From assembly GCA_013792135.1 (NCBI GenBank), contig VMSP01000020.1:1-45740 (forward strand): 45,740 nucleotides of DNA. Direction: 5' to 3'. This document shows positions 2,942 through 25,607 of this stretch, one piece after another. The notes beneath the pieces were generated by a model. It did not search any database. It worked only from the letters and a program-made list of their open reading frames with translations, and was not told where the DNA came from. The DNA comes from Desulfocapsa sp. (lineage in GTDB: Bacteria > Desulfobacterota > Desulfobulbia > Desulfobulbales > Desulfocapsaceae). Numbering within the stretch: the stretch's first letter is position 1; each line of letters begins with the position of its first letter. The position numbers and the translations under genes are program-made.

Positions 2942-2999
2942 TGCCTGGAGCTCTTTGTTTAATTTCCTGTTACCGGATGAGTTCGGGTCTTTGCCAATT

Positions 3000-7343: not shown

Positions 7344-7354
7344 AACAACAGATT

Positions 7355-8350: not shown

Positions 8351-8353
8351 AAT

Positions 8354-9796
8354 TTATTCTCTATTTTTTTGCTCTGCCAGCCACTGCCTACCAAGTTGGG
8401 TCAGCTGGTATTGCTGAAGGGGGCTGTTTGGTTTGTCTGGGATGGTCATTTCCAGGAGAGCCTTCGTCAAGGCAGGCTGTAGATAATTTTCGAGAAAATA
8501 CTTCTTGTTTTTGATGCCCATACTGCTTTGAATTTCTTTCCTGGAAAGCGCCTTTTCACAGGTGGCTAACAGTCTAACAACTGAGGGGGTAACTGAGGGG
8601 GTAGCTGAGGGGGTAGCTGAGGGGGTAACATGGGGAGTAAGTTCTTTCGCTTCAGGGTGGGGGTAGACAATCACTCGAATTGTTGGCCCAATTTCCTGCC
8701 ATTCCGGAGCGGGGTATCCATTGGCATTACAAAAATCGACCACCCTTTTATAACCACTTCCCCATTCCTCCATGACACCAAGCTCTTTTAAGGTGCGGGC
8801 GACAACACGATTTCTGATCCTGCTGAGCCCGGTTTTGAGATCATCCATGGTCATCCCAAAAGGCAGAAGACCTGGGCTTTGTATCTCGAGTCTGTCTGAA
8901 AAAATAGCGACCATCACCCGCATCCCTGTTAGAGAATAATCACAGTGGACAACACTGTTGACGAGGATTTCCCGGACGGCAAAGCCGGGGTAGGCGGGGA
9001 TATCTTCACGCTTCATCCCCTCAATTTTTGGAAACAGCCTGCTATTACGGAGAATAAAGGTTGGAACCTTTTCAATAGCCTCAAGAATAGAGCCTTCAAA
9101 ATCCAGCCGGTCAAGAAAATGGGCTTTGTCGGTGCCGCTAAATCTGGCGCAACTGACCCTGGCATCCGGTAATATTTGTTGCCTGATATCCGGCTTGCCG
9201 AAAAGAATGAGCCCACCATAGGTCACTACATTTCGCCCGGCAAACGGAGTCAAAATTCCGAGGGAAATAAGCTGTTGTTCATGCACCTCTCTTCCAGCTT
9301 CCTTAAATATTTTCTCAATAAATGGAAGGTCCAGCGCCTCTATGGAAAGGGAAGGACAAGGCAACTGGTCAAAGGTTTTATTTTCATGCTGCCTTTTCAT
9401 CTCAGCAATAAACTCAGGCCCGGCCTGACGGGTGCTGGAACCCAGACGAATATATACGCCTCGCTCATCTCCTTCACTCTTTAGATAAAACGGGCCTGGC
9501 CAGTGGGCGACACGAATACACAACAGTGCTTTTCCGGCAACCGAGACGATTTCAATGTCCGGCATGATCATGGGCGCAATCGAATCGGCAATAGCACTGG
9601 ATAATTGTTCCTCAACCTGAAGGGGGTTCTCAACACCAGCGATATTGCCATCATCCTCCCTGCCGATGACAATGACGCCGCCGGCAGTATTGGCAAAGGC
9701 GACAATGGTCTTCATGATCTGCTTGAGAGCAGATGTATCCCGTTTGAACTCGAGCGTCTTTCCTTCTGAAGTGGTGAGGAGTTGTTTGATATCCAT
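8354..9796 (-). CDS. AlbA_2 / GHKL-ATPase / winged-helix protein (COG2865-like), copy 2
   Basis: Second AlbA_2 regulator, 480 aa. The N-terminal AlbA_2 domain has TLEFKRDTS and VAFANTAGGVIVIG (residues 13-50). The HATPase_c_4-like domain has AVREILVNSVVHCDYS (about 265) and IQSPGLLPFG. A linker of five degenerate 4-aa repeats (TPHV, TPSA, TPSA, TPSV, TPSV) leads to a winged-helix end with NYLQPALTKALL, closely matching copy 1. It lies between GT4 copy 2 (11 bp upstream) and the radical SAM gene (3 bp downstream) in one minus-strand run. It may regulate that cluster or act as an independent defence-type gene; the sequence does not decide. Confidence 0.85.
   Translation of the reverse strand: MDIKQLLTTSEGKTLEFKRDTSALKQIMKTIVAFANTAGGVIVIGREDDGNIAGVENPLQVEEQLSSAIADSIAPMIMPDIEIVSVAGKALLCIRVAHWPGPFYLKSEGDERGVYIRLGSSTRQAGPEFIAEMKRQHENKTFDQLPCPSLSIEALDLPFIEKIFKEAGREVHEQQLISLGILTPFAGRNVVTYGGLILFGKPDIRQQILPDARVSCARFSGTDKAHFLDRLDFEGSILEAIEKVPTFILRNSRLFPKIEGMKREDIPAYPGFAVREILVNSVVHCDYSLTGMRVMVAIFSDRLEIQSPGLLPFGMTMDDLKTGLSRIRNRVVARTLKELGVMEEWGSGYKRVVDFCNANGYPAPEWQEIGPTIRVIVYPHPEAKELTPHVTPSATPSATPSVTPSVVRLLATCEKALSRKEIQSSMGIKNKKYFLENYLQPALTKALLEMTIPDKPNSPLQQYQLTQLGRQWLAEQKNRE
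8580..8639. repeat. 12-bp degenerate coding repeat, 5 copies
   Basis: Five 12-bp units (two ACTGAGGGGGTA, two GCTGAGGGGGTA, one ACATGGGGAGTA) encode the linker of the AlbA_2 protein. It is the counterpart of the seven perfect units at 1451-1534 but more diverged, so linker length differs between the paralogues. Confidence 0.93.
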
Positions 9797-9807
9797 TGTA
9801 TTGCGTT

Positions 9808-11013
9808 CTATGCTCCGGTAAGAAGCTCAGAGTAGATGCTCAGCAACTGGCGATTATGTTCTGCCAGCGAGTACTCCTGCTCAAGCTTACTTCTGGCGGC
9901 GCGACCCATTTGATCTCTCAATTCAGCATCACCTGCCAGGAGTTCCATCTTTTCCGCCAGTTCAGCCACATTGCCCATTTCAAAGAGAAGCCCTGTCTTG
10001 CCATCTTCAATCTGCTCCGGGATGCCGCCGATCCGGCTGCCGATGATCGGCTTGCCAAAGGCCATGGCTTCGAGCACCACCATGGAACAGTTTTCATACC
10101 ATTCAGACGGAACCACGACAAAGGCGGCGCTGGCAATAAGATCGTGCAGGACCTGACCACTCTGATAGCCAAGAAAATCGACCTCAGGATATTCCCCCCG
10201 CAACTCTTGTTCCAGTGGCCCAGTGCCAACCATTTTTAGAGGCAGATTTGTTTTCAGGCTTTGATGGGCACGAAGCAGGGTCTTCACCCCTTTTTCCCTG
10301 GATAACCTGCCAAAATAAAGGCCATAGCCCTGATCTGCATACCTTGGTTGATAGGTATCCACATCAATACCATTAGGCAGTACCTTGATTTTTTCTCGGG
10401 GGATACGCTGCCCAATCAGATCGGCCAGAAAACGACTGGGAGCCAGAAAGAGATCACCCCCCTCATAACTCCCCCGCCACTTATGAAACATGGCCTCTGC
10501 CGAAAGAAGAAACCCACGCATCCGTGAATCCTGGCAGTTCATGGTAAAGGCATTCCAGGACTTCCCCCCGGCACAGGCGTTGCAGATTGCGCCATCCTTC
10601 AAGGCCAGATAACTGGGGCATACCAGTTTGTAGTCGTGCAATGTCAGGACAACCTTGACCCCATGTTTTTTCAATACAGGAACAATGGAGGGAGTGAGCT
10701 GGTGATAGATATTATGGAGATGGGCTATCTGCGGCTTTTCCTGAACAATCAATTCCTCAATCTTACGCACTGCCACTGAAGAATGGACAAAGGAAATGGC
10801 CTGCTGGAGTCTCTGGGCTATTCCACCAGCGGAGTTATAACTGGTGTTGGGCACAAAGAAATCAGCATAGGAAGAGGGAAGATTCCTCTCATCAGCCATG
10901 GAAAAATCAACGACCTCATGCCCCTGCCCCGTCAGAAAAGCACGTTCCTGAAAAAACACGGTTTCCGATCCGCCATTGAGGTGGAAGAATTTATTGGCGA
11001 GGAGGATCTTCAT
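9808..11013 (-). CDS. GT4 glycosyltransferase, copy 2 (full length)
   Basis: The complete member of the local GT4 family, 401 aa, and the reference for the truncated copies at 59-1222, 2636-2941 and 4909-4937. The acceptor domain has NGGSETVFFQE and HLHNIYHQLTP. The donor domain has LYFGRLSREKGVKTLL and the E-x7-E block around residue 305. The C-terminus LRDQMGRAARSKLEQEYS is the usual GT4 tail, missing from copy 1. The frame is open to 11106, but those codons run into an IS3 remnant and lack similarity, so the ATG at 11013 (MKILLAN) is chosen. It precedes the AlbA_2 copy 2 gene by 11 bp. Donor and acceptor are unknown. Confidence 0.92.
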   Translation of the reverse strand: MKILLANKFFHLNGGSETVFFQERAFLTGQGHEVVDFSMADERNLPSSYADFFVPNTSYNSAGGIAQRLQQAISFVHSSVAVRKIEELIVQEKPQIAHLHNIYHQLTPSIVPVLKKHGVKVVLTLHDYKLVCPSYLALKDGAICNACAGGKSWNAFTMNCQDSRMRGFLLSAEAMFHKWRGSYEGGDLFLAPSRFLADLIGQRIPREKIKVLPNGIDVDTYQPRYADQGYGLYFGRLSREKGVKTLLRAHQSLKTNLPLKMVGTGPLEQELRGEYPEVDFLGYQSGQVLHDLIASAAFVVVPSEWYENCSMVVLEAMAFGKPIIGSRIGGIPEQIEDGKTGLLFEMGNVAELAEKMELLAGDAELRDQMGRAARSKLEQEYSLAEHNRQLLSIYSELLTGA

Positions 11014-11106
11014 GGCCTGGATCTCTTTGTTTTTTAGGCGCTGCCTGTATTTCATTAATACAGGCCATCCCATATTCTGTGATGTTATATCTCTGATCAG
11101 CAGCAC

Positions 11107-11295: not shown

Positions 11296-12348
11296 TTATA
11301 TTTTTAGCCTTAATTTTACAACCTCCCAAATGCTCTTTCCCATTTTTTCTTCGTTAAATTTGTCTCTTACTGTGATTAATCCTTGTTGGCCTATCTTTTT
11401 TCGCAAAAGAGCATCATTCTCTAACCTTAATATCTGACCAGTCAAATAATTACTGTCGTTAAGTGGATATAATAAAGCGTTTTTTTCAGATTCAACATAG
11501 TCTGTTATCGCACCTATGTTGGTTGTGATAACAGCTTTTGCAAATGCCATTGCTTGTAATACACTCATTTGTCCATGGGCATATTTTTTTTCAGTAAGGG
11601 GAATTATGATAAATTTTGAATTATTGATTAGTTTTTTTAATTCGTTGATGGAGACTGAGGGATGTAAGGATACTCCTTGTGGCAAGGGGATGTCCATTTT
11701 TTTTGGTCCGACAATAAGTAACTTAGTAGAGATAGCTGCGTTCTGATACGCCAAAATTAATGTTTTCCAGTCTCTTGAGTGGTAACCAAAGGAGAGTATA
11801 TAATCTTCACTAGGTGTGATGTCTGATGGATGGAAAAAATCTAGATCAACGCCAAAAGGAATAAAATGAGAGTCATTGCTTAGTGTTGGAAAATATTGTT
11901 TGTAATGTTCTTTTTGCATTGTTGCATGATAGATAACCATGTCTATTTTGGTGGCAGCAAATTGTGTCAGGGACAGTATTGGCTGTTTACTATTGCCACC
12001 ATTAATTGCGGCAACATCTATTAAAATGTGAGGCGGATGATTTTTGAAAAAAATTTTTCTTAATATTCCGAGGACTAGAGCGCTTTGTCCTCCATGGGAT
12101 ATAATTAGATCATACTTCGATGAAATGAGAAAAGCGTACAATGCTTGGATAATATGTAGTTTGAATAATTTTTTCTCAATCTTTCCAAACATACCGCAGT
12201 CAATTATTCTGACATTCAGATTTGAAATCTGCCAATATTTAAAAAACCAATATCGTTCATTTGTAACATAAACATCAGGAGATTGTTTATTGCAAATGTT
12301 TGACATGACGTGATCGACACGCCAGTTTGGTAAAAACAATACTCGCAT
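11296..12348 (-). CDS. GT4-like glycosyltransferase
   Basis: GT-B glycosyltransferase of 350 aa. The first domain is diverged (MRVLFLPNWRVDH, then an AT-rich Lys/Ile-rich stretch with LIISHGGQSALVLG). The donor domain is clearer: ILSFGYHSRDWKTLILAY (about 195), LLIVGPKK, then LTEKKYAHGQMSVLQAMAFA and TTNIGAITDYVE (about 260-290). The first glutamate of E-x7-E appears shifted or replaced in this block. It starts just after the DUF115 gene in the same direction (4 bp apart). It is AT-rich, as in the rest of the 11.3-19.7 kb block, which suggests transfer from another genome. Substrate unknown. Confidence 0.8.
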   Translation of the reverse strand: MRVLFLPNWRVDHVMSNICNKQSPDVYVTNERYWFFKYWQISNLNVRIIDCGMFGKIEKKLFKLHIIQALYAFLISSKYDLIISHGGQSALVLGILRKIFFKNHPPHILIDVAAINGGNSKQPILSLTQFAATKIDMVIYHATMQKEHYKQYFPTLSNDSHFIPFGVDLDFFHPSDITPSEDYILSFGYHSRDWKTLILAYQNAAISTKLLIVGPKKMDIPLPQGVSLHPSVSINELKKLINNSKFIIIPLTEKKYAHGQMSVLQAMAFAKAVITTNIGAITDYVESEKNALLYPLNDSNYLTGQILRLENDALLRKKIGQQGLITVRDKFNEEKMGKSIWEVVKLRLKI

Positions 12349-12352
12349 AATT

Positions 12353-13246
12353 TTACTTTTTCCTGGTGGCCTTAGTACTTAGTGCGTTTTCATCTACGAG
12401 CCATTGATTGGCACGTTGGTTCAGGAACATAGAACATAAATCCACCCTGTCAAATACTTCAAGCATACCGCCTCTAGTTGCATTGAAAATTTTGACCCCG
12501 TTCTTATCGGCATACTTTTTGGCAATGGAAAATGCGTAAATCATTAGCTCTCCAACGCTGGCTGCATTCTTGTCCTTCCAGCCGGATGCCACAAAGTGTT
12601 GTTTTCCATGTTTGCTATAGTTGCAATCGGTTCCCAATAGATAAATTTCAGAAAATCCCATGTACACTGCTAGTTGAAGCATTGAATATGTAACAGAGTA
12701 GCCGTCATGTACAATTTTCGAAGCGTCATTAGAAAATCCGGTAGTACGTGGGACGAGTTCTCTGTGCCGACCATGGAAACATGTAAAATGGAAATAAGGA
12801 ATATAATTGTGAGGAATTGAGAACTGGGTTGTCATTTGATGTCCGACAAAAATTGTCCCTAGATCAGAACTTCGAATTTCCTCTTCCAGTTTTTCATACA
12901 CGTTCGCATCTTGAATTCCATAATAGGTAGGACGCCACTCTGTTTGGTTAAAAGTCTTAATGATTGAATTGACGCTGAAGCAAAATTCGTCCTTCAATAG
13001 CGAGAGGTCATCAAAAGTAAGGCTAGGACCTGTTGCTACAATGAAGCACCTTTTTCCCTTGTGAATATCTTTGAACATTTCAATTTTTTGATAAGGCGTA
13101 TTCTTCAATAACTTCAATTTGATAAGCAGATAACGCAAATATCGAAATGAATCCATAACAAGATTGTGAAAAATAATGTTTATTACAATGCCGAGCCCAT
13201 AAGTGAGCTGGTTTTTTTTTAGGGTGCTATATATTTTGTTGATCAT
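12353..13246 (-). CDS. MptE-like / DUF115-family protein
   Basis: Protein of 297 aa with the DUF115 (6-hydroxymethylpterin pyrophosphokinase MptE-like) fold. Visible features are KGKRCFIVATGPSL (about 62-76), a Rossmann-like nucleotide site; YLLGTDCNYSKHGKQHF (about 205-220); and FNATRGGMLEVFDRVDL near the end, the usual closing motif. Family members in surface-polysaccharide loci are thought to act in glycan modification or nonulosonate/phosphosugar transfer; the reaction here is not known. It overlaps the polymerase gene by 20 nt, with AAGAAGG as a well-spaced ribosome-binding site. A related domain is fused to the aldolase at 17055-18599. Confidence 0.75.
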   Translation of the reverse strand: MINKIYSTLKKNQLTYGLGIVINIIFHNLVMDSFRYLRYLLIKLKLLKNTPYQKIEMFKDIHKGKRCFIVATGPSLTFDDLSLLKDEFCFSVNSIIKTFNQTEWRPTYYGIQDANVYEKLEEEIRSSDLGTIFVGHQMTTQFSIPHNYIPYFHFTCFHGRHRELVPRTTGFSNDASKIVHDGYSVTYSMLQLAVYMGFSEIYLLGTDCNYSKHGKQHFVASGWKDKNAASVGELMIYAFSIAKKYADKNGVKIFNATRGGMLEVFDRVDLCSMFLNQRANQWLVDENALSTKATRKK

Positions 13247-14465
13247 CCATGTGCCTTCTTATATTTTGCGGATTTTCATTTGATGGCAATATAGCGAGAA
13301 GGGTAAAAAGGAATACGCCATTGGTTGATTTGATGATACCTGTTCCAATGCTACAGACAACAAGCATTGCGAAGGCAGCCATTGCTATTGTTTTATAACG
13401 AATTGATGAACGCTTATCTTCATTGAGAATTTGAAAGAGCTGGAAAAGTATTACTATGTAAATAAGTGTGCCGAAGTACCCAGTCTGGGCGATTATCATT
13501 GCCAGATAGTTATCATTAAGAAAGTTACCATGCTTACCATTATGGCCTGTGCCCAGTCCATAAACATAGAGCAAGCCATATTTAACATAAAGGGGGGAGT
13601 AGTGCTGTTTTGCCTGTTCTCCACCATAAGTTGCAAATCCTGATCCAAAGGGTGCGTAATCATTGGCCACTTTAAAGGAATTTAGCAGGAGATGCATGCG
13701 AGGAGAGTTGTAATCCGTGATGTAGGTGGTAATTTGATAAGACGAAATTAGAAATATTGCAGCAGCGAAAATAACAAGATGCCTAATTTTAATATTTGCT
13801 TTGTTATCAATGATGAAAATGATAAAACTGACTGTAAGAAATGAATATATAACACCTTTAGTCGTCTGAAGAAGTGTCACGAACGATAGCACTACGTATA
13901 AAACGAATTTCCTGTTTGGTAAAGTTGAAGCTGATATTATTAAGAGACAAGCAACAACAGATATTCCGAATGCACTTTGATTACCAAAGACAAAGCAAAA
14001 CGCCTTGATGCCGTACCGTTCATCAAAAGTCATTCCTATATCAATGAACTGTGATAAGAGTGCCAATATGAAAGTCAATATGATATAAAATTTTGATATA
14101 GGGGTTAGAAAATTTACGAACACTTGTCTTTCATGCTCGGACAATACTTTTCTCAGCAAAACAAATACAAGGAATTGTTTGTATATCGTAAGCATGTCTA
14201 TGATTATAGGCGGGGGCGAAACGATGAGATTGCTTTGAAGATTTGATGTCAGACCAATCAAATATGTTATTATAATATTGAAAAAGATCCATCGATCTCG
14301 ACGAGAAAATCTTTTCCTGCTCGTTGTCAAATGAAAAAACGCACAAACAAAAACAAAGAACTCATCATAATAAGCAAAGACCCCTGGAATGATGTAGCTA
14401 ACGGGGAGCAACATTGTTGCTAAGGCTAAAATTTTCGCACGACTCAAGGAGATTTTAGTAGCCAA
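13227..14465 (-). CDS. wzy: Wzy-like O-antigen/polysaccharide polymerase
   Basis: Very hydrophobic inner-membrane protein with about ten predicted membrane segments and a long hydrophilic loop near residues 260-330 (GSGFATYGGEQAKQHYSP, then GLGTGHNGKHGNFLNDNY). This is the usual shape of Wzy polymerases, which join undecaprenyl-linked units in the periplasm. The frame is open to an ATG at 14522 inside the flippase gene. A TTG at 14465 preceded by GGAG with 7-base spacing overlaps the flippase stop by 11 nt and is a better start. Wzy proteins share little sequence, so the call rests on topology and on position beside wzx and GT genes. Confidence 0.75.
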   Translation of the reverse strand: MATKISLSRAKILALATMLLPVSYIIPGVFAYYDEFFVFVCAFFHLTTSRKRFSRRDRWIFFNIIITYLIGLTSNLQSNLIVSPPPIIIDMLTIYKQFLVFVLLRKVLSEHERQVFVNFLTPISKFYIILTFILALLSQFIDIGMTFDERYGIKAFCFVFGNQSAFGISVVACLLIISASTLPNRKFVLYVVLSFVTLLQTTKGVIYSFLTVSFIIFIIDNKANIKIRHLVIFAAAIFLISSYQITTYITDYNSPRMHLLLNSFKVANDYAPFGSGFATYGGEQAKQHYSPLYVKYGLLYVYGLGTGHNGKHGNFLNDNYLAMIIAQTGYFGTLIYIVILFQLFQILNEDKRSSIRYKTIAMAAFAMLVVCSIGTGIIKSTNGVFLFTLLAILPSNENPQNIRRHMDDQQNI

Positions 14466-15981
14466 GTTTTTTCTCCAAAAAAGAACAGATATAAACCTGT
14501 TCTTCACGGGATAATCCCACAAAATATATGGCTAAGATGGAACTTAGGGTGGATACCACGGAGACAACAATCAGAGCCATGACCCCCTCAACAAAAAAGC
14601 TGACCGTCAGTGGGGCGATTGGTGCCAACATTGTAACGAAAATAATTGGAGCAATCACTATATGCATATAGTTTTTTAGATCGAACTCTGGCAGTAGTTT
14701 TTTAATCACTCGCAAAATAACGTAAAGATACACCAACCGAACTATAATATATCCGAAGTAGACACTTTGTGGAGGAAAACCAATTGCCAAGAATATGTAA
14801 GCAACAGGAAAATTCATTAAAAAAACAATCCCGCCAAGTAACGAGTACCCCTTAAGATTACCAACAGATTGGACTGCTGCCCAAAGAGGGTTTTTTAGAG
14901 AATCAACGAGAGTATAGATGATTATTAGTATCGAGAAACCTGAAGTATACTTCGGGACAACGGTTAACCAGGTATTCAGGATGAAATCAATGTTCAAGAT
15001 CAATGGTATAGCCAGCAACATTAAAAGGTAATAAGTGAATTTTGAGCTTAGATTTATTGTTTTAAAAAAGAATGTCATATCCCTTACTGCGTACGCCTTT
15101 ACCATTTGAGGTCGAGCGGCAGTATAAATATTTTGACTGAAGCTGAGTAAAGCGTTACTTATTTGGTATGATATCCCTCGTGCGGCATTTATTGTAGGGC
15201 CCATGAAAATATTTAAGAGGACACTGATTCCTTGTTGGTTTATAGCCTCTGTTAGAGCGGTAAATGCATTCCATCCTATAAATGAGAACATCTGTTTGAA
15301 TAGGTCGCTGTTCCAATAGAAGCTAATCTTGCTTTCGGTAAAGTTTTTGGAACAGTAAATCATTTTTACCAGGCCTACAAGTAATGTGACCACCATATAT
15401 AGGAAAGCGTAGTGGACTAACTTGTCATGGGAACTGATTATAAGTACGTATGCAATTATTAATCGACCAACGGCTTCAAGTATGCCAACGTATGCGTATA
15501 CTTGCATCCGTTCTCTGGCAATTATAACAGCGTCATAGATGTAGCTGTTTATTGTGAAGAAGACCGATAATACAGAAAAGTGGAAAACTAGATTTGCCGC
15601 GGGTAGCCGTTCAATTGGTATGACGAGTTTATTGTTTATGAACCAGAGACCCAATGTTTCAAGAATAACCACAACAATGACCGACATCGCAAAGAAATTA
15701 AAACAGGCCATGTTGAATACATGGTTCGCTTCAACTTCATCGCCTAAGCCATATTGGTAGTTCAAAAAACGCTGCGCCGAGTTGGATAATGACGACCCAA
15801 AGAAGAAAAACATTATGACAAAACCTGCTACAAGATTGTAGATGCCAAAGTCAACTACCCCCAACTCTTGTAGTATAATTCTGGAACTATAAAGCGTGAC
15901 AAGGAGAACGAGGCCCATGCGTATGTAGAGAAGCATGGTGTTTTTGAGAATGCTTTTATTACTCAGTTTGACTTTATACAT
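14455..15981 (-). CDS. wzx: Wzx-like polysaccharide flippase
   Basis: Inner-membrane protein of 508 aa with about 12-14 membrane segments, of the MOP (MATE-like) polysaccharide-transporter superfamily. The N-terminus holds YSSRIILQELGVVDFGIYNLV, shortened here to its core LGVVDFGIYN, the hallmark of Wzx/RfbX proteins. A conserved QGISVLLNIFMGPTINAARG block lies near residue 250. It should flip undecaprenyl-diphosphate-linked oligosaccharide to the periplasm for the adjacent Wzy. It is the first gene of the AT-rich block wzx-wzy-DUF115-GT4, with overlapping ends. Upstream DNA holds an IS3 remnant, so the native promoter may have been altered. Confidence 0.9.
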   Translation of the reverse strand: MYKVKLSNKSILKNTMLLYIRMGLVLLVTLYSSRIILQELGVVDFGIYNLVAGFVIMFFFFGSSLSNSAQRFLNYQYGLGDEVEANHVFNMACFNFFAMSVIVVVILETLGLWFINNKLVIPIERLPAANLVFHFSVLSVFFTINSYIYDAVIIARERMQVYAYVGILEAVGRLIIAYVLIISSHDKLVHYAFLYMVVTLLVGLVKMIYCSKNFTESKISFYWNSDLFKQMFSFIGWNAFTALTEAINQQGISVLLNIFMGPTINAARGISYQISNALLSFSQNIYTAARPQMVKAYAVRDMTFFFKTINLSSKFTYYLLMLLAIPLILNIDFILNTWLTVVPKYTSGFSILIIIYTLVDSLKNPLWAAVQSVGNLKGYSLLGGIVFLMNFPVAYIFLAIGFPPQSVYFGYIIVRLVYLYVILRVIKKLLPEFDLKNYMHIVIAPIIFVTMLAPIAPLTVSFFVEGVMALIVVSVVSTLSSILAIYFVGLSREEQVYICSFLEKKLGY

Positions 15982-16329: not shown

Positions 16330-16995
16330 CTAATTGTACATCTTCTCTGCAATAGCAAAGTCTTCTTCCCAATCGATGTCAAAAGATTCTTTACCGTCCA
16401 AGATATAAAGATATGGTTTCTTGCCGATCCTGTCATTTAACGCAATGTAGTTATTGCGTGATGAAATAAATATTCCACTATTTACCTCATACAGAGGTGG
16501 CAATGATTGAGTGAATGGCCACTTTTGTTGCTCCCGATCATAGTTGATTGGTCCATTTTGGTCCCAGATAAAGGTCTGAAGTTTCGTCACGCTCATGAGA
16601 GAGTCAAACTCACTGGTGGAATTGTTGAAATAGATCCTAATGGCGGCTTCATAACTTTTTGCTTGAATGAATGGAGAAGTAACATGTGTCCATAGGATAT
16701 GTTCATTTTGAGTCAAAGAAGGAACATATTTTATCAAATCGTCCGTGGTGGTTTCGTTGGTGCAAAGATGTTCTGGTCTTCTGTCAATTTTCAACTGTGG
16801 GATATCCAATCGTTGCCCAATGTCGATGATGTCTTTATCGTTTGTGGACAAAATGATCTCGTCTACCATCTTCATTTTTGATAACTGCTCCAATTTGATT
16901 CTTGCCAGTCCTCCATCAATGCCGGCAAATGGTCGGATGTTTTTATTTTTTACGCGTTGAGAGCCTTTTCGGCAGGGTAAGAAAACTGTGATCAT
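16330..16995 (-). CDS. CMP-sugar (acylneuraminate/Kdo-type) cytidylyltransferase
   Basis: Cytidylyltransferase-like protein of 221 aa (CTP_transf_3 family). These enzymes transfer CMP from CTP to the anomeric hydroxyl of 2-keto-3-deoxy sugar acids such as sialic, legionaminic or Kdo-type acids. The N-terminus VFLPCRKGSQRVKNKNIRPF carries the nucleotide-binding CRxGSxRVxxKN motif. STNDKDI (about 50), ILWTHVTSPF (about 100), YEVNSGIFISSR (about 165) and FDIDWEEDFAIAE (about 208) match the family. It is short but complete. It follows the aldolase-fusion gene by 59 bp in the same direction. No NeuB or NeuC is in the window, so the activated sugar acid may be made by the adjacent aldolase. Confidence 0.85.
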   Translation of the reverse strand: MITVFLPCRKGSQRVKNKNIRPFAGIDGGLARIKLEQLSKMKMVDEIILSTNDKDIIDIGQRLDIPQLKIDRRPEHLCTNETTTDDLIKYVPSLTQNEHILWTHVTSPFIQAKSYEAAIRIYFNNSTSEFDSLMSVTKLQTFIWDQNGPINYDREQQKWPFTQSLPPLYEVNSGIFISSRNNYIALNDRIGKKPYLYILDGKESFDIDWEEDFAIAEKMYN

Positions 16996-17054
16996 GTATT
17001 CCTCTAATTAAATAAAAACGTACGTCAACCCTATCAGGGGTGGAGTATCCTGAG

Positions 17055-18599
17055 CTAAATGAGACTGTATATGGAGATCTCATGAACATTCTGGTATCTC
17101 GTTGGAGTTAGTGATGTTAAAATTTTTTCAGTTTTTTGAAATGCATCAAGCAGGAATTGGTTTTCCTGCTCAACCTCCAACATATGATTGCCTGTTCCAG
17201 TATCATATCCGTCAAGACCAAAAAGATATACGGTTTTTGCAGCCATTAACGCCGCGAGTTGGAATGCAATTGTTAAGAGGGAGTCGGGATAATCATTAAA
17301 CAAAGTTATTTCTTTAAGTTCATAGGTCTGATTTTCAATTTCGATGGGAATAATGGTTCCCATCAGGCGTGGAGATGGCTCAATTATAAAAATATGGTTT
17401 GCTATTTTCTGACTCTGAAGAGAGTCCTTCATCTTGTATCCTTCAGAACCGAGCAAGCAAACAAACTGTTTATTATTGCCCAGATCAGAAAAATCTGAAA
17501 TGTGACGGCTTCCCGCATGTATCAAAACGGTACTTGGATTTTTTTTGCAAAATATTTTCAAAGCATGGGCATGTCTCTTGGAATTAGCACCCCCGCCAAC
17601 GATTACAACCGTATCGGCTATACTTTCAAGATTTAATATGGGTACGTTCTGATTGTCCGGCTGTTGATCTTTATGATTTTGAAGTGCGTTGATAATACTT
17701 TTTGGTGTATATCTTTTTTTGGAAATCCAACTCATGACATCTTTTTGAGGCAGTGAAAATGCGCCCGAAATCATGTATGGTAACGATGTTCCCCATTCGT
17801 ACACCTTTTGAAGCTTTTCGAATTCGGAAATAATCGAGGTCAAGCCATTGTAATTAAAGCTATTGTTCTCTTTTGAGTCTAAGCATGTCAGTAACAATTC
17901 AGTTTTCAAGTTTCCAGCCCCCCGCCCCATACCTGTGATTGTTACGTCAACAATATTGCAGCCGTTGTCGAGTGCAGCGAGTGAATTAGCTAGAGCCAAT
18001 TCCAGGTTGTTGTGACCATGAAAACCTAACGGAATATTTGTAGTAGATTTCACTTTGTTAAAAGCGTCTTTAACTTCTTGTGGATACACACTTCCATAGG
18101 AATCAACCAATGTGAGGTAATTTGTATCCACATCTCTGAGTTTTGCCAAAAATGCATCGTCTACAATCCATTTGGACATATACATTACGTTCAGGCCCAC
18201 CTCAAACCCTCGAGATATGATCTCTCTGGCAAGGCGTGATGCACGTTCAATGTTCACGGGATCCACTGCCAACCGAATCATGTCTATGTATCCTTCACAC
18301 GGATATAACAGCGTGTTCAAATCCTCCAGTCGTGTGCTTTTTTCATTGAGCATAATTGCTATTTTTTTGTCAGGACATTTCTCTCGTGCAAGTTGCATGA
18401 CATGTGCCGGACAATAGAAGTATTCGCCCAGATACTCCTTCATGGGTAAGCTCCTGTAGCCAATTTCAACATAAGTTATTTCTGGAATACTGTTGACTGC
18501 AGCGAAGTAACGGCATACCAAGTCTTGAGTGAAATCCCAATTTGTGTAGTAACCTCCATCTCTGAGGGTACAATCCAATATTTCATGTTTTGGTAGCAT
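17055..18599 (-). CDS. HMGL-like aldolase fused to an MptE-like (DUF115-type) domain
   Basis: A two-domain protein of about 514 aa. Residues 1-275 are a DRE-TIM metallolyase barrel: LDCTLRDGGYYTNWDF with the DRDG metal site, YVEIGYRS, LGFHGHNNLELALANS with the HGHN ligands, and GMGRGAGN. Enzymes such as 4-hydroxy-2-oxovalerate aldolase make or break C-C bonds next to a keto acid. Residues 310-514 hold VVIVGGGANSKRHAHALK and VYLFGLDGYDTGTGNHM, like the phosphate-binding and GTD motifs of the DUF115 protein at 12353. The ATG at 18599 has GGAG six bases upstream; the frame is open to 18611 without one. It lies between kinase and cytidylyltransferase genes, suggesting synthesis of a 3-deoxy-2-keto sugar acid. 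That pathway is inference. Confidence 0.75.
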   Translation of the reverse strand: MLPKHEILDCTLRDGGYYTNWDFTQDLVCRYFAAVNSIPEITYVEIGYRSLPMKEYLGEYFYCPAHVMQLAREKCPDKKIAIMLNEKSTRLEDLNTLLYPCEGYIDMIRLAVDPVNIERASRLAREIISRGFEVGLNVMYMSKWIVDDAFLAKLRDVDTNYLTLVDSYGSVYPQEVKDAFNKVKSTTNIPLGFHGHNNLELALANSLAALDNGCNIVDVTITGMGRGAGNLKTELLLTCLDSKENNSFNYNGLTSIISEFEKLQKVYEWGTSLPYMISGAFSLPQKDVMSWISKKRYTPKSIINALQNHKDQQPDNQNVPILNLESIADTVVIVGGGANSKRHAHALKIFCKKNPSTVLIHAGSRHISDFSDLGNNKQFVCLLGSEGYKMKDSLQSQKIANHIFIIEPSPRLMGTIIPIEIENQTYELKEITLFNDYPDSLLTIAFQLAALMAAKTVYLFGLDGYDTGTGNHMLEVEQENQFLLDAFQKTEKILTSLTPTRYQNVHEISIYSLI

Positions 18600-18617
18600 A
18601 TTATTCTCCATGTTATG

Positions 18618-19664
18618 TTATCTTGTTATTCGTCCTGATGTATGTCCTTGCAATAATTTTTCAATATCTTCAATTAAGGATAGATTGAAGTCACCCTCAA
18701 TTGAGTGTTTGAGTGCAGAAGAAGCTGTAGCAAAGTCAAGAATATGTTGGAAGTCCGTACCGAAATTGTTGATTCCGTATATGATTCCTGCTGAAAATGA
18801 ATCCCCGGCACCAACTCTATCAACAATGTGGGTAAGATTGTACTTGTTGCTATGATAGATTCGTCCGGCGTTATAAAGAATTGCCGACCATGTGTTGTGG
18901 CTAGCGCTTACTGATTCTCTCAATGTGAAACACACTGTTTGCGCTCTTGGGAATTTTTTGCATACATCAGAACAGATTCGCTCATAGTGTGATTTTGAAA
19001 TTATTTGATACTCTTCGCTATTTTCTGAGTTATCTGTCTGTATTCCTAGACATTTTATTGCATCTTCCTCATTTCCAATTATTACATCGCAGTATTGTGT
19101 CAAGTCCGTCATTACTTCCGCACTTGATTTATTATATTTCCAGAGGTTTCCACGATAATTCAGGTCAACTGAAATTGGTACTCCAGCTTTTTTTGCATAA
19201 TGAATCGCTTCCTTGGTCACCTGGTATAGGTTTTCTGATAGGGCGGGAGAGATCCCAGACCAATGAAACCATCGAGCTTCAGCAAAGATTGTTTGCCAAT
19301 CGATTAGTCCTGGTTGGATTTTGCTGAAAGCCGAGTCTTCTCTATCGTAGATAACTTTGCTAGGCCGATGTATTGCACCTTTTTCGATAAATATAAGGCC
19401 TTGTCTATTATTGTTATAAATTATGTGGTGAATTCCCAAATTATATTTTTGCAAATCATGCCGTATTCGCAGTCCAAGATCATTGTTAGATAGTGCTGTT
19501 ACATATTGCACGTTTTCATTTAGCAGAGAAAGGGATACAGCAACGTTTGCCTCTGAACCGGCGCAACTTATTTTGAACGTATCGGATTGGAGTATTTTTG
19601 TAAAGTTTTGAGGTGATAGCCTGAGCATAATTTCACCGAAAGTCACAATTGCCGGTCTGTTCAT
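18618..19664 (-). CDS. PfkB-family sugar kinase (KDG-kinase-like)
   Basis: Carbohydrate kinase of 348 aa in the ribokinase/PfkB family. The N-terminus VTFGEIMLRLSPQ resembles 2-dehydro-3-deoxygluconokinase, and the sugar-binding CAGSEANVAVSLSLL follows. The signature DRVGAGDSFSAGIIYG near residue 285 contains the catalytic aspartate and anion hole. The SVDLNYRGNLW block (about 165) is also KDG-kinase-like. It starts the run kinase-aldolase fusion-cytidylyltransferase (18 bp to the fusion gene). In that setting it may phosphorylate a sugar or keto-sugar acid intermediate. Substrate is not determined. It is AT-rich like its neighbours. Confidence 0.85.
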   Translation of the reverse strand: MNRPAIVTFGEIMLRLSPQNFTKILQSDTFKISCAGSEANVAVSLSLLNENVQYVTALSNNDLGLRIRHDLQKYNLGIHHIIYNNNRQGLIFIEKGAIHRPSKVIYDREDSAFSKIQPGLIDWQTIFAEARWFHWSGISPALSENLYQVTKEAIHYAKKAGVPISVDLNYRGNLWKYNKSSAEVMTDLTQYCDVIIGNEEDAIKCLGIQTDNSENSEEYQIISKSHYERICSDVCKKFPRAQTVCFTLRESVSASHNTWSAILYNAGRIYHSNKYNLTHIVDRVGAGDSFSAGIIYGINNFGTDFQHILDFATASSALKHSIEGDFNLSLIEDIEKLLQGHTSGRITR

Positions 19665-19989: not shown

Positions 19990-20926
19990 GGGTCGGACCA
20001 AGCTATCTATTTGATCATTCAACATTTAAATCCAAATAATACGTGTTTTCAGTGCTTAAAAGTACCTTTTCAGGGGCGAAATGGGCATTGTAAGAAGCCC
20101 CTTGCTCTCTCAGTTCGTAATGATCTTTGACTTCCCTCGTCTTTCGCCCCATCTGCCTTGCTTGTAATCTTTCCCTGATTTCGTCGACGAAGGCCTCACT
20201 TCCGACTGCAATGGCGTCTGTCCATTCTGGTTCTCGTCCTTTTACTCGGTTATGACGAATGGATTCTTCCACCCAGTGACGGTGCTCTTTGCGAAGTTGT
20301 TCATCGCTGGTCGAACCACAGCAGGCGATGAGCTGCTCTCGGTTAATCAGTGAATATCTTAGCGGTGGATTTTGGATTTCATTGTAACCACCATGCGCCC
20401 ATGAAGAAGGATGAGAAACGACGCCATTTCTTACCATGTTTAAATCGATGTAAGTGAGGCATCTGAAAAAATGTTCTCCTGGCTCTACCGCCGTTGCATG
20501 GTATCGATCATCCCAGTAAGCACCTTTTCGATTTTTTCTTCTATTGAACTCCTGAGCTGTCTTACCTGCGACGAGCTGGAGACTCTGTGGTACCACCTCT
20601 GCATCTCCATCAATAATCAACAGGTGAATATGGTTAGAGGTAACTACGTAATTAAGGATTTGCAGACCATACCGTTTCTTGGCTTCAAACAACCACTGCA
20701 GCCATCTTTTCCTGTCACGTGAAAATTTGAGCAGAAATTCTTGTTTATGACAGCGATGGGTAATATGCCAAACTTGTCCCGGAATATGATGTCGATTGGC
20801 TCTAGCCATATCAGATTATTCCTTAAACCCGTCATCTTTGCCCGGAAATGGGCGACCTAAGGCCTTTTTGTAGATATTTAATATGATATATTTTCGTTTT
20901 ATCAGGTGGTTAGCTTGGTCCGACCC
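19990..20926 (-). mobile_element. RAYT transposon-like element bounded by 16-bp inverted repeats
   Basis: The element carries a RAYT gene and is bounded by gggtcggaccaagcta at 19990-20005 and its perfect inverse at 20911-20926. Its right end lies inside a hicA toxin gene, so it was inserted there. The same 16-bp end recurs, with at most a few changes, at 21414, 21489, 22956 and 24187, three of these joined to truncated RAYT 3' ends. The terminal repeats are direct sequence evidence; mobility in this form is inference. Confidence 0.75.
20015..20809 (-). CDS. REP-associated tyrosine transposase (RAYT, Y1_Tnp)
   Basis: Y1-type HUH transposase of 264 aa, the RAYT group that processes REP palindromes as single-stranded DNA. 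The HUH pair is H60-I-H62 in TSNHIHLLI, and the likely catalytic tyrosine is Y120 in CLTYIDLNMVRNG. The N-terminus MARANRHHIPGQVWHITHRC is the standard RAYT start. The C-terminal part (about 190-264, from HNRVKGREPEW to YYLDLNVE) is the portion copied at three other places nearby. Coding is intact. It lies within inverted repeats, 15-24 bp inside the left one. It may still be active. Confidence 0.92.
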   Translation of the reverse strand: MARANRHHIPGQVWHITHRCHKQEFLLKFSRDRKRWLQWLFEAKKRYGLQILNYVVTSNHIHLLIIDGDAEVVPQSLQLVAGKTAQEFNRRKNRKGAYWDDRYHATAVEPGEHFFRCLTYIDLNMVRNGVVSHPSSWAHGGYNEIQNPPLRYSLINREQLIACCGSTSDEQLRKEHRHWVEESIRHNRVKGREPEWTDAIAVGSEAFVDEIRERLQARQMGRKTREVKDHYELREQGASYNAHFAPEKVLLSTENTYYLDLNVE

Positions 20927-21815: not shown

Positions 21816-22829
21816 TCATTGCCCCGCTTCTCGCAAGCTCAGTTCCAGCTCGCGGCGGAGAGACTCACGGTCTGGTAGATAGAGCTGGTATTTCTGCACG
21901 AATAGTTGGCTGTTCATTTGGTAAGTGGCATATTCTACCAGCAATTCATCTTTGTTGCGGCTTAGGATGATACCAATTGGCGGCTTGTCGCCTTCGACAT
22001 TTTCCTCGTTGGCGAAGTAGCCCAGATACAGATTCATCTGGCCGATATCGTGGTGCTGAACCTCGCCCATCTTGAGATCAATGAGTACGAAGCAGCGCAG
22101 GATGCGGTGGTAAAAAACCAAGTCAACCTTGTAATGGGCGTTGTTGATGGTGATCCGGTATTGCCTACCCACAAAGGTGAAACCTTTGCCAAGTTCGAGC
22201 ATGAAGGGCTGGAGATGGTCACAGAGTATCGTTTCGAGTTGGGTTTCAGATACCTGGTAGGGTTCGGGAATTTTCAGAAACTCAAATACATAGGGCTCGC
22301 GTAGCAGGTCTGCAGGTTGTTCGGTAACCTGGCCTTGGGCGGCGAGTTGCAGAATTCCGGCCTTATCCTTGCTGGCAGCAAGACGCAAGAACAGGGATGC
22401 AGCCTTCTGTCGTTTTAATTCCGGCACCGACCAGTGTTCAGCAATGGCCTGTTTCTCGTAAAAGCTACGCTCCAGTTCATCATCCAACTTGAGAAGTTCT
22501 ATATAATGTGACCAGCTCAATTGGTGAGAAGGCTTCTGACTTATTGGGTAACGCAGATACAGCAGCCGCATGTAAACCAAATTGCTACGACTGAAGCCCT
22601 TGCCATGGCGGAGCCCTAAGTCTTTGGCTAAACTATTAATTAATGCCGTGCCATATACAGCCCTGATTTTGCCCGCTTGCTCAAACTCGACAATATGCCG
22701 CCCGACCTGCCAATAGGTTTCGGTGATATGGGCGTTGACCGCCTGCACCGCCAATAAGCGGCCTTGAGTGTAGGAACCGGAAATCTGTTCAAGTAGATCA
22801 CGGTAACCTTCTATCGTGGATAATTCCAT
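21816..22829 (-). CDS. YhcG/DUF1016-family PDDEXK nuclease, intact copy
   Basis: Protein of 337 aa, close to the usual YhcG length. The N-terminal DUF1016_N helical domain (about 1-160) has TETYWQVGRHIVEFEQ, KGFSRSNLVYMRLLY and LSWSHYIELLKLDD. The C-terminal PDDEXK domain (about 180-330) has KVDLVFYHR with the metal-binding aspartate and FVLIDLKMGE with the D-x-K pair, followed by QMNLYLGYF. YhcG proteins are putative DNA-processing or defence nucleases of unsettled function. All catalytic residues are present. It has a RAYT 3' end 62 bp downstream. Upstream lies a 17-bp sequence (ggtagagtaggaagctg, 22894) also found at 21350. Confidence 0.88.
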   Translation of the reverse strand: MELSTIEGYRDLLEQISGSYTQGRLLAVQAVNAHITETYWQVGRHIVEFEQAGKIRAVYGTALINSLAKDLGLRHGKGFSRSNLVYMRLLYLRYPISQKPSHQLSWSHYIELLKLDDELERSFYEKQAIAEHWSVPELKRQKAASLFLRLAASKDKAGILQLAAQGQVTEQPADLLREPYVFEFLKIPEPYQVSETQLETILCDHLQPFMLELGKGFTFVGRQYRITINNAHYKVDLVFYHRILRCFVLIDLKMGEVQHHDIGQMNLYLGYFANEENVEGDKPPIGIILSRNKDELLVEYATYQMNSQLFVQKYQLYLPDRESLRRELELSLREAGQ

Positions 22830-22955
22830 ACAAACCCCATCTTTTCAGTCATTACATCCTCTCCTGGTTACCCATGTGCCACATGGAAAAAAGGGTAGAG
22901 TAGGAAGCTGTTTTCTCGAGCATAGCCAGGCAAAAATGCAGTATAATGCAGTATC

Positions 22956-23147
22956 GGGTCGGACCAAGATATCCTACTGATTTTTCGCATTTAAATCCAG
23001 ACAATATGTGTTTCCTGTGCTTAAAAGTACATTTTCAGGGGCAAAATGGGCATTGTAAGCAGCCCTTTGCTCTTTCAGTTCATAATGCCCACTGGTTTCT
23101 CTCGTCTTCCGTCCAGTCCTATGTAAAGTTTTTCCCTGAAATCAGCC
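22956..23147 (-). pseudogene. RAYT 3'-end copy 3 (degenerate)
   Basis: It begins gggtcggaccaag at 22956 and follows the RAYT 3' end (YNAHFAPENVLLSTGNTY in the minus frame) with more changes than the other copies and an internal frameshift near REKL. It runs straight into the stop region of the second YhcG gene at 23142. It is the oldest-looking of the copies. Confidence 0.8.
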
Positions 23148-24163
23148 AATCTCATCCCCCTCCCATCCCTGTAACCGTTCCCGGATTTCCTCCTCGCTCG
23201 GCAGCATATGCTGGTAAGCCGCCGGCAGATGTGAGGTCAGACTGTAGGTGGCAATGCCGATGGGTTGGATAGCAGTCTTCAGCGCATATTCGACCACTGT
23301 TTTTTTCTTGTTCTTGCAGATGATGATGCCGATGGCGTCGCTTTCACCTGGTAGCTTAACTTGCTCGTTGAGCGCCACGAGGTAGAACTCCATTTTACCT
23401 TTGTGCTCGGGCTTGAATTCACCGATTTTAAGTTCTACAGCTATCAGGCTTTTCAGCGCCCTGTGGTATAGCAGCAAGTCGATGTAGTAGTCGTTGCCTT
23501 CCACGGACAACCGGTATTGACTGCCCACAAAGGTGAAGTGTGGCCCCATTTCGGTGAGGAATCTCTGAACATGGGCGATCAGGGCGGTTTCGAGTTCCCG
23601 CTCCTCGTGTGCGTCGGAGAGCTCAAGAAAGTCGAAGGTGTAGTGATCCTTGACCGCCAGCTTGGCTTGTGCGGCGATGGCTTGCGGCAGGGCGCTATCG
23701 AAGCTGGTCTGGTTGAGTAGGTATTTTTCGTAGGTCTGGTTGTCGATCTGGTGCTCCAGCACCCGGCGTGTCCAGCCAAAGCGGGCAGTGCGCGCAGGTA
23801 GAACTCGCGCTGCAGTGGGTTTCGGCAGCGATCGAGGATTAAGGTGTTTTTGGTCCAGGAGATTTCTGCAGCCAGTGGCTGCAGAATTGGCTGTTCCTTG
23901 TATTCACGGTAAAACGTGCGCATGTACCAAAGATTGCGCCCGGAGAAGCCGCTCTTTTCGCTGAATTCAGCACGCAGATCGGCGGACAGCCGCTCGACAA
24001 CAGCCTTGCCCCAGCCTTCCGCTTCCTGACGTTCCTCGTTCAGCTTGCCAATGTCCCAGTAGAGGGCGATCAGTTCTTTGTTGACTGCACGCAACGCTGT
24101 ATATTGCGCCGTGTGTATGCGAGTTTTGAGTTCGGTCAGCAGCGTTCCGTAATCAGCACCATT
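23142..24163 (-). pseudogene. YhcG/DUF1016-family nuclease, frameshifted copy 2
   Basis: Two overlapping frames together make one YhcG protein. The upstream frame carries GTLLTELKTRIHTAQ, KELIALYWDIGKL and GFSGRNLWYMRTFY to PLQREFYLRA. Near 23790 a one-base loss shifts the frame, and the downstream frame continues RFGWTRRVLEHQI to the end. The nuclease domain itself is intact in the second frame (YYIDLLLYHR and IAVELKIGEF). The N-terminus lacks an ATG because a RAYT 3' end abuts it; the first usable start would be a TTG at 24094. It is probably inactive, unless the shift is a sequencing error or is corrected by recoding. Confidence 0.82.
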
Positions 24164-24186
24164 CTGTGTGATTTGGGGTTGATTTG

Positions 24187-24308
24187 GGGTCGGACCAAGC
24201 TATCTACTTGATCATTCAACATTTAAATCAAAATAATACATGTTTTCAGCGCTTAAAAGTACCCTTTCAGGGGCGAAATGGGCATTGTAAGCAGCCCCTT
24301 GCTCTCTC
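24187..24308 (-). pseudogene. RAYT 3'-end copy 4
   Basis: It starts with the perfect 16-bp end gggtcggaccaagcta at 24187 and continues with the last 30 or so RAYT codons (EQGAAYNAHFAPERVLLSAE). It breaks off at 24308, where a RhuM-type remnant begins. A preceding gatttggggtt duplicate resembles the units at 21405-21504. Confidence 0.85.
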
Positions 24309-24310
24309 TC

Positions 24311-24428
24311 TCAGTGTCCAGATGGTTTCGTCCTCATAACGGGCTTCAATGCTCTGCCCACCGCTTTGCCCGGTAAATATCAGGAATTCTGCCGTACTGT
24401 TGCGGATCAGCTTCTTTTCACCCTTCAT
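24311..24428 (-). pseudogene. N-terminal remnant of a RhuM-family gene
   Basis: The frame starting at 24428 reads MKGEKKLIRNSTAEFLIFTG and continues to SIEARYEDETIWTL, the characteristic start of RhuM/virulence-associated proteins (normally over 300 aa). It is cut after about 40 residues by the RAYT 3' end, with which the frame fuses before stopping. AAGGTAAAAGG precedes the ATG. Inactive remnant. Confidence 0.7.
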
Positions 24429-24475
24429 CCTTTTACCTTCATCCTTCGTAACTATTCACCTGAGATTTCACTAAT

Positions 24476-24506
24476 TCTGGTTCCCATGCTGCGCATGGGA
24501 ACCAGA
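24476..24506. repeat. 14-bp perfect palindrome with 3-nt loop
   Basis: The arms tctggttcccatgc and gcatgggaaccaga pair perfectly around TGC. This is the type of ggttcccatgc/gcatgggaacc repeat found dispersed in many proteobacterial genomes. It lies between the RhuM remnant and the third YhcG gene. It could fold in either strand, but no T-run follows, so a terminator role is not supported. A decayed relative is at 22870. Confidence 0.8.
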
Positions 24507-24588
24507 TAAAACGCAAGCTCTGCGGGCATCTGCTCCTCCTGCATAAATCTCATAGCGGGTCCGCAAAATCAGGCTCCGTTTCTATTTT

Positions 24589-25607
24589 CTAATCCAGAGC
24601 CAACCGCTGACGGACTATTTCAATAGAACGATGCAGTTTGGCTTCCAGCAACTCTTTTGGTGGCAACAGCGTGAGATAATCCGCAACACGGATATTACTT
24701 TTGTCCAACTGCAGCAATTCAACATGTTCGTGATTCTTTCCCGTACAGAGGATCAAGCCGATGGGGGTATTCTCACCTTCCAACTGTTCGTGCTTCTCCA
24801 GGTAGCGCAGATACAGTTCCATTTGACCTTTGTAAGCGGCTTCAAATTCGCCGATTTTCAGATCAATAGCCACCAGACATTTCAGGCGGCGGTGGTAAAA
24901 AAGGAGATTGATATAATAATCACGTTGATCAATGGTGATTCGCTTTTGCCGCGCCATAAACGCAAAATCGCTGCCAAGCTCGATAATGAATCGTTGTAGT
25001 TCAGCCAAAATTGCGGATTCGAGGTCTTTTTCGGAATAGCTGTCGGACAAGCCAAGAAAATCCAGCACGTAGGGGTCGCGGAAGGTGAGATCCGGTGAAA
25101 GTTGCCCTTGGTCGCGTAAAAGATCGAGGTCTTGTCGGATGGTGTCTTCCGGCTTTTTGGATATAGCTGTGCGCTCGTAGAGCAGCGAGTTGATACGCTC
25201 TTGCAGCTGGCGAACGCTCCAATGTTCGAGACGGCAGATTTCGAGATAGAAATCGCGTTTGAGCGGGTCATCGATATAGATCAGTGCCTTAAGATGAGAC
25301 CAAGACAATTCTCTCCGCACTGTAGAGAGAATTTGCTCATCGGGGTATACCTCAGCCAATCGCAAGCAGTGACGGAGTTGCTGCTCGCTCCACCCTTTGC
25401 CAAAATCGGTCGTCAGCAGCCGCGCCAATTCGGCGACCACCTGCTTGCCATATTCAGCCCTTTGCCCCTGCAGCAATTCGCTGTTAATGCGTCGACCGAT
25501 CTGCCAGTAGAGTTGGGTGAGTTCGGCATTGACCGCTGTCGGGCGGCATCGATGAGATGACGCACATCGGCAAGCAGTTGCTTATCGGTTGGAATGGGGT
25601 TGATCAT
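24589..25607 (-). pseudogene. YhcG/DUF1016-family nuclease, frameshifted copy 3
   Basis: The start frame MINPIPTDKQLLADVRHLID runs 20-25 codons, then a single-base loss near 25545 shifts it. The next frame continues AVNAELTQLYWQIGRRINSE and the rest of a YhcG protein to 24589, with WSEQQLRHCLRLAEVY, LSWSHLKALIYIDD and a nuclease domain. The expected aspartate of the PDDEXK core is asparagine here (YYINLLFYHRR instead of a YYIDLL-type block), while AIDLKIGEF is kept. Both the frameshift and the lost aspartate point to an inactive gene. The long open second frame shows the decay is recent. Confidence 0.82.

Follow-up and report, generated by a model that had tools for sequence, protein, structure and literature searches.

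Genes of the cassette

We analysed a 45,740-nucleotide stretch of Desulfocapsa sp. DNA (contig VMSP01000020.1 of assembly GCA_013792135.1, hereafter the window) in which three adjacent minus-strand open reading frames (ORFs) encode a sugar kinase, an aldolase fusion protein and a cytidylyltransferase. Their positions and families (Pfam PfkB, HMGL-like and CTP_transf_3) agree with an earlier reading of the letters alone (the original prediction), as does a free MptE-like gene 4 kb away. By ORF coordinates, 6 bases separate the kinase from the fusion and 59 bases the fusion from the cytidylyltransferase. We interpret the three genes as a probable cassette for a cytidine monophosphate (CMP)-activated 3-deoxy-2-keto sugar (ulosonic) acid, an acidic sugar resembling sialic acid, made by the aldolase, in an acquired surface-polysaccharide cluster; judging from sequence we give this a probability of roughly 0.6.

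18618..19664, minus strand: PfkB sugar kinase of the 2-keto-3-deoxygluconate (KDG) kinase type (Pfam PfkB, E 3.3e-28; relative of 2afb; GAGD at residues 285-288)
17055..18611, minus strand: fusion of a DRE-TIM (HMGL-like) aldolase domain and a Maf/MptE-like C-terminal domain (HMGL-like, E 8.5e-22, N-terminal half only)
17871..18584, minus strand: HMGL-like aldolase domain of the fusion, residues 10-247 (R17, D18, H198 and H200 invariant in 81/81)
17055..17648, minus strand: C-terminal Maf/MptE/Cst-II-like domain of the fusion, residues 322-518 (fold of predicted model)
16330..16995, minus strand: CMP-ulosonate synthase-like cytidylyltransferase (Pfam CTP_transf_3, E 2.2e-14; RKGSQR, TSP and DIDWEED stretches)
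12353..13246, minus strand: free MptE-like protein (Pfam MptE-like, E 1.5e-14)

The fusion family and recurrence of the gene set

The fusion had been thought unusual. A scan of named genomes instead recovered 162 relatives, ruling out that it is unique to the window, and the fusion is a patchy yet widespread family in Bacteroidota. Locus counts used the best 80 of these relatives, near full length and 43-57% identical, of which 77 were from Bacteroidota and 3 from Balneolota. The 80 loci were chosen through the fusion itself, and 15 of them span less than 21 kb, where absences are weaker. The fusion was found in 3 of 301 genomes of the Phocaeicola vulgatus family, P. vulgatus included, and in 9 of 395 genomes of its phylum, a count that includes P. 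vulgatus and three from the earlier scan. Adding the window and eight new loci from evenly drawn genomes gave 89 loci with no double counting (L152 and L153 are the L096 and L097 proteins, and the G297 match is the L105 genome). Viral contigs yielded no relatives in a search with a single protein query, by which close relatives only were detectable. A Leisingera plasmid carries a fusion-like gene of 27% identity and 98% coverage that matched Pfam HMGL-like and did not match MptE-like; directly behind it come a KdsB-like gene, scoring 306 bits with the cassette profile, and a HAD gene (92 bits). Matches on Paraburkholderia and Legionella plasmids were discarded as they lie in different neighbourhoods.

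The window cytidylyltransferase scored 54.3 bits against the CTP_transf_3 cutoff of 22.6, and the nucleotide and metal motif columns are conserved across 52 aligned members. The nearest NCBIfam model, the PseF equivalog TIGR03584, gave 64.3 bits, below its cutoff of 205.7. In 79 of the 80 loci the 6 kb downstream of the fusion contain a cytidylyltransferase, which directly follows the fusion in 67; at offsets -6 to -1 such genes were counted 9 times altogether. This bore out the predicted pairing of an aldolase-type protein with a CMP-ulosonate-synthase-like gene in a set without a phosphoenolpyruvate (PEP)-dependent synthase. The sole exception, L095, carries a HAD gene and, 6 kb off, NeuB. 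A HAD phosphatase was present in 69/80 loci, and where both genes occur they lie with the fusion on one strand in 67 of 68 loci. All eight further loci have the cytidylyltransferase, together with a HAD (6) or a kinase (2), and L123, a distant relative from the window's taxonomic order, has DHDPS-family, HAD, fusion and cytidylyltransferase genes. In L132 and L133, whose cytidylyltransferases are 39% and 33% identical, no aldolase was recognised in the ORF starts, where no family search was made. L034 holds the closest relative of the window fusion; in this locus a cytidylyltransferase-HAD fusion (14648-15808) adjoins NeuB.

Two kinds of cytidylyltransferase, PseF-like and KdsB-like, were swapped repeatedly along the fusion tree. 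With the two labels as assigned, its starred branches require a minimum of 7 and 13 changes; this is a quick tree with the SH-like approximate likelihood ratio test (SH-aLRT) only and a few rough labels, the default pseF standing on L123, on L095, which has no cassette cytidylyltransferase, and on L032, whose enzyme is KdsB-like. CTP_transf_3 enzymes use the anomeric hydroxyl of ulosonic acids. The product of the cassette is likely a CMP-ulosonate.

The aldolase domain and the source of the ulosonate skeleton

To our knowledge, the known bacterial routes to CMP-ulosonic acids begin with a PEP-dependent synthase. Sialic acid, 3-deoxy-D-manno-octulosonic acid (Kdo), legionaminic acid and pseudaminic acid are made by pathways that run from NeuB or KdsA through a phosphatase to NeuA or KdsB. 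The cassette shares with these a cytidylyltransferase of the CMP-ulosonate synthase family, a HAD in most relatives and sialyltransferase-type genes nearby. It differs in having an HMGL-like aldolase-type protein in the place of the synthase and, in the window, a KDG-kinase-like gene with no cassette-type HAD.

The N-terminal domain of the fusion scored 78.2 bits against the HMGL-like cutoff of 29 and has the Arg-Asp and His-x-His residues of DRE-TIM metallolyases. Of the metal motifs that the original prediction had called intact, HGHN is present from H198 and DRDG is not, the sequence reading LRDGGYY (R17, D18); R17, D18, H198 and H200 are all unchanged in 81/81 aligned family proteins. The nearest characterised folds of the fusion are pyruvate aldolases. 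Its score against the 4-hydroxy-2-oxovalerate aldolase equivalog TIGR03217 was 79.6 bits, below the cutoff of 286. BVU_2661 of P. vulgatus (PDB 3dxi), deposited as a putative aldolase, is 53% identical across the N-terminal domain, which is all that the structure covers; its locus (L064) also has the fusion, cytidylyltransferase and kinase, with the kinase last and not first as in the window. In BphI-type aldolases a His acts as base. Unlike DmpG/BphI (1nvm), the window fusion has Tyr21 for this His and carries a fused Maf-like domain, and no dehydrogenase was found among the eight island proteins scanned. The conserved residues and folds suggest that the ulosonate is probably the product of an aldol reaction with pyruvate in the HMGL-like domain.

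Searches for PEP-dependent synthases found nothing over the NeuB cutoff in the Desulfocapsa genome, where one weak match falls within KdsA; KdsA itself was above cutoff on a different contig. The predicted lack of a nearby synthase was upheld for KdsA, which occurred in 0/80 loci in the available DNA of up to 10 kb per side (one 14.9-bit match to a NeuB was not counted), and failed for NeuB in 19/80 loci, where it lies within about 10 kb. A second cytidylyltransferase accompanies NeuB above 100 bits in 13 of these 19 loci, weakly in 3 and not at all in 3. Of the 44 genomes searched among those of the 80 relatives, 10 had no NeuB over cutoff, and six of the ten have a PseF-like cassette cytidylyltransferase. 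Sphingobacterium deserti (L088) is an example of a carrier that lacks NeuB. A hidden general supply from NeuB was therefore unsupported, with the window's own genome and these ten lacking NeuB over cutoff.

Several observations weigh against a skeleton made by the fusion. The fusion fell below cutoff for all 25 NCBIfam models listed, of 28, and Tyr21 aligns at the position of the BphI-type His. NeuB is near in the 19 loci mentioned, six of which have no second strong cytidylyltransferase, as well as in L154 among the eight further loci, and L095 combines NeuB with the lack of a cassette cytidylyltransferase. KdsA was found in 12/12 relatives' genomes searched, which together with its presence in the window's own genome makes a Kdo-derived supply possible, and the KdsB-like enzymes mean that for some loci the product could be Kdo itself. 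An HpaI/GarL-type aldolase, its family known from one representative, lies between the fusion and the cytidylyltransferase in 10/80 loci, and in L123 a DHDPS-family gene adjoins the cassette, so the fusion may act otherwise there. To these we add three points from the parts treated below: Foldseek with the C-terminal domain gave no match under E 0.001, 9/80 loci have neither HAD nor kinase, and a simple scheme does not account for the exchange of these two genes.

Many of these points favour an alternative in which a CMP-ulosonate is still made but its skeleton comes from housekeeping KdsA, KDG metabolism or an HpaI/DHDPS aldolase, with the fusion working at another step such as aldehyde making or chain modification. 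Beyond KdsA and the HpaI- and DHDPS-type neighbours, it is favoured by the KdsB-like cytidylyltransferases of 31/80 loci, as both of those tested (2/2) exceeded the KdsB subfamily cutoffs NF009905 and NF003952, though they fell below the kdsB equivalog cutoff. It also gains from L131, a locus from the window's taxonomic order in which a cytidylyltransferase, an HpaI-type aldolase, an epimerase-like gene and a HAD (6588-10526) occur without the fusion; this locus speaks for the main reading as well, since it indicates that a pyruvate-aldolase gene can occupy that place. However, 69/80 loci have no HpaI-type cluster gene within six genes, the gene that stays constant in the set is the fusion (in loci that were found through it), and pyruvate aldolases are its nearest characterised folds. 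We consider this alternative rather unlikely, though it is to be taken seriously. The L131 cassette may itself be another aldolase-based ulosonate route.

A second aldolase subfamily was seen in the window's class. Its proteins, about 320 residues long and with 30-34% identity to the fusion, were inspected in L120 and L125 and set aside as different; they carry VIDCTVRDGGLMN (L125 553-1503, L120 6456-7460) and adjoin a KHG/KDPG-aldolase-like gene, named by appearance. By length, many of the matches in the class (67/257) resemble them.

The C-terminal domain and nearby transferases

The claim that the fusion partner is MptE-like held for its fold and not for its Pfam match. Pfam MptE-like (PF01973) had no match in the window fusion itself; it was listed at E <= 1 for 54/81 family members, mostly weakly (best 2.8e-6) and in a tally without positions. 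The L123 match, at 387-529 (E 1.9e-4), falls in the C-terminal region. The predicted model of the isolated domain matched Maf and MptE structures, placing it in the Maf/MptE/Cst-II fold, with a Maf glycosyltransferase best over 186/197 residues and Cst-II lower in the ranking. The diphosphokinase HPPK and SteA have the same fold. An alignment of 80 domains (the window and 79 of the 80 relatives, L074 being identical to L072) has 14 invariant columns. Where the NGPS-type loop of Maf or GT42 glycosyltransferases was expected, the family consensus is GGGxS and the window has GGGAN; an NGPSL stretch is kept in L123. Thus the domain is like the Maf/PseD flagellin glycosyltransferase and GT42 Cst-II in fold, but unlike them is fused to an aldolase and has GGGxS for NGPS. 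Comparison of its profile by hhalign with an alignment led by the 12353..13246 protein matched 27 columns around GxD with 94% probability.

Genes of possible transferases were counted around the cassette in 79 loci. At +3 we found GT29 (11), polysialyltransferase (2) and MptE-like (2) genes and at +4 polysialyltransferase (10) and MptE-like (4) genes, the majority at both positions being of other families. At -2 (78 of 79 genes, L038 left out) the three families were outside the 25 commonest, a list that ends at 3/78 members, so up to three such genes are possible there. GT29 enzymes are reported to use CMP donors for the transfer of ulosonic acids (PMC13171606). According to a second source, Maf transfers CMP-activated ulosonic acids, its PF01973 domain resembles Cst-II, and the C. 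botulinum Maf uses N-acetylneuraminic acid (Neu5Ac) and Kdo donors (PMC11339370). The ulosonate link of the polysialyltransferase genes follows from their family name and that of the MptE-like genes from Maf. The use of CMP-ulosonic acids by Maf could explain the presence of the free MptE-like gene at 12353, whose product also matched PseD and WaaZ models weakly and far below cutoff, and we infer that this protein is the candidate ulosonate glycosyltransferase of the cluster.

The fused domain could also be a glycosyltransferase in its own right, making the fusion a bifunctional enzyme for the first and last steps. A Maf glycosyltransferase as best structural match, the invariant columns and the NGPSL of L123 would fit, but the GGGxS consensus (GGGAN in the window), the separate GT29, polysialyltransferase or MptE-like genes near some loci, and the sharing of the fold by HPPK and SteA speak against it, and we regard it as unlikely. 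The Maf-like domain probably binds the CMP-ulosonate, either for transfer or to regulate the aldolase; transferring, channelling and sensing were each considered as possible roles.

The kinase and its exchange with the HAD

The best solved relative of the window kinase is 2afb, deposited as a 2-keto-3-deoxygluconate kinase (E 3e-85, residues 5-348). Y106, R108, R171 and D288 align with Y103, R105, R167 and the GAGD Asp of 1v19, residues that we take to have roles in KDG binding. The acid-residue columns of KDG kinases are conserved in all five cassette kinases, with Ile in the window for Tyr89 of 1v19. Against the KDG kinase equivalogs the best score was 199.4 bits (NF041332), under the cutoff of 440. 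The window kinase therefore resembles the KDG kinases in its whole-length homology to 2afb and its aligned acid residues, and differs from them in this Ile and in its place in a surface-sugar cassette.

The kinase was not the regular partner that had been supposed, since 2/80 relatives have it and 69/80 have the HAD phosphatase. Its co-occurrence with the cytidylyltransferase was seen in two of the 80 loci, L064 and L113, and in L137 and L138 from the evenly drawn genomes, as in the window, and not in most loci, the kinase being absent from 84/89. The gene order is fusion-cytidylyltransferase-kinase in these four loci and kinase-fusion-cytidylyltransferase in the window. No cassette-type HAD was found in the five kinase loci, even at E <= 10, so that a HAD is present in 0/5 kinase loci against 75/84 others (Fisher p 4.8e-5, ignoring relatedness). 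The five loci need at least three changes on the fusion tree, and their kinases are 38-46% identical across three tree positions. Among the nine loci with neither gene, L046 stops 1 kb past the fusion. The exchange of kinase and HAD points to related products made under two different schemes of phosphorylation. A kinase running backwards as the substitute for the HAD was rejected, by reasoning only, as thermodynamically unlikely.

The exclusion of kinase and HAD in the loci examined implies that the phosphate state seems to matter, as it would if kinase and cytidylyltransferase were joined through a phosphorylated sugar leading to a cytidine diphosphate (CDP)-type donor, with a catabolic aldolase. 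With CTP_transf_3 acting at the anomeric hydroxyl, sialyltransferase-type genes nearby and most of the 89 loci devoid of the kinase, this explanation is very unlikely.

Genomic setting

The cassette sits amid glycosyltransferases and hydrophobic proteins in an island of about 11-21 kb. The G+C content of the island is 37-42%, whereas most 2 kb windows in the rest of the stretch have 46-56%. Besides the free MptE-like gene, the island holds the following.

11296..12348, minus strand: glycosyltransferase group 1 (Pfam, E 2e-12)
13227..14522, minus strand: hydrophobic protein, O-antigen-polymerase-like by appearance only (no Pfam match at E <= 0.1)
14455..15981, minus strand: hydrophobic protein, Wzx-flippase-like by appearance only (sub-cutoff CrgA match only)

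Searching 257 genomes of the window's class with the fusion gave a full-length match in its own genome only; other matches, at 30-34% identity, covered the aldolase part, and one (G018) was read as the distant fusion L123. Among 117 relatives, the kinase query had no same-genus match at E <= 1e-30 and the cytidylyltransferase query a single weak one (E 1.4e-11). Owing to this scarcity the set looks foreign to the genus, and the surface-polysaccharide cluster that holds it was most likely acquired horizontally from Bacteroidota. Chance neighbourhood within a mosaic polysaccharide island, which the foreign composition and an adjoining transposase-like gene (by appearance) might suggest, is judged already refuted by the recurrence of fusion, cytidylyltransferase and kinase together in L064, L113, L137 and L138.

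Bordering the low-G+C island are a gene resembling a REP-associated transposase (20015-20809) and several DUF1016-like nuclease ORFs (21816-25476), two of which overlap in different frames; all are named by appearance. Elsewhere in the window, the glycosyltransferase start MKILLANKFFHLNGGSETVFFQER is common to three ORFs (59-1222, 2636-3034 and 9808-11106), repeated copies within 45 kb, of which one has only 132 residues. Two related ATP-binding-like proteins (1222-2622 and 8354-9796, named by appearance), with TPHVTPHV / TPSATPSV repeat linkers, adjoin these copies.

A proposed aldolase-based route

Our interpretation of an aldolase-based cassette draws on the gene set, its recurrence, the conserved residues, the predicted folds and the exclusion of kinase and HAD in the loci examined. 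In this route the HMGL-like domain would join pyruvate and an aldehyde into a 2-keto-3-deoxy acid, in place of the PEP-dependent NeuB/KdsA step. The cytidylyltransferase would then form the CMP-sugar, which would be transferred by a sialyltransferase-type enzyme, in the window perhaps the MptE-like protein at 12353. For the majority of relatives a sugar phosphate is the probable aldehyde, from which the phosphate would later be removed by the HAD. In the window variant, where the HAD is missing, the KDG-kinase-like enzyme probably acts on the free 2-keto-3-deoxy acid, the least certain step. Binding of the CMP-ulosonate by the C-terminal Maf-like domain would serve transfer or regulation of the aldolase. 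We assign the cassette to none of the named pathways.

More broadly, the chances are about even that the cassettes form a family of CMP-ulosonic acid systems scattered in Bacteroidota and spread to other phyla. In it a metal-dependent pyruvate aldolase would stand in for the PEP-dependent synthase, a fused Maf/sialyltransferase-like domain would bind the CMP-sugar for transfer or feedback, and the swap of HAD for a KDG-type kinase would give a second variant, recurring independently, in which phosphorylation follows another logic. The open-licence literature searched held, in the parts available, no description of such a cassette. If the aldolase-based route is true, a class of acidic surface sugars escapes genome screens that rely on NeuB or KdsA, the solved but functionally unassigned structure 3dxi would gain a function, and the cassettes would provide testable enzymes for new ulosonic acids.

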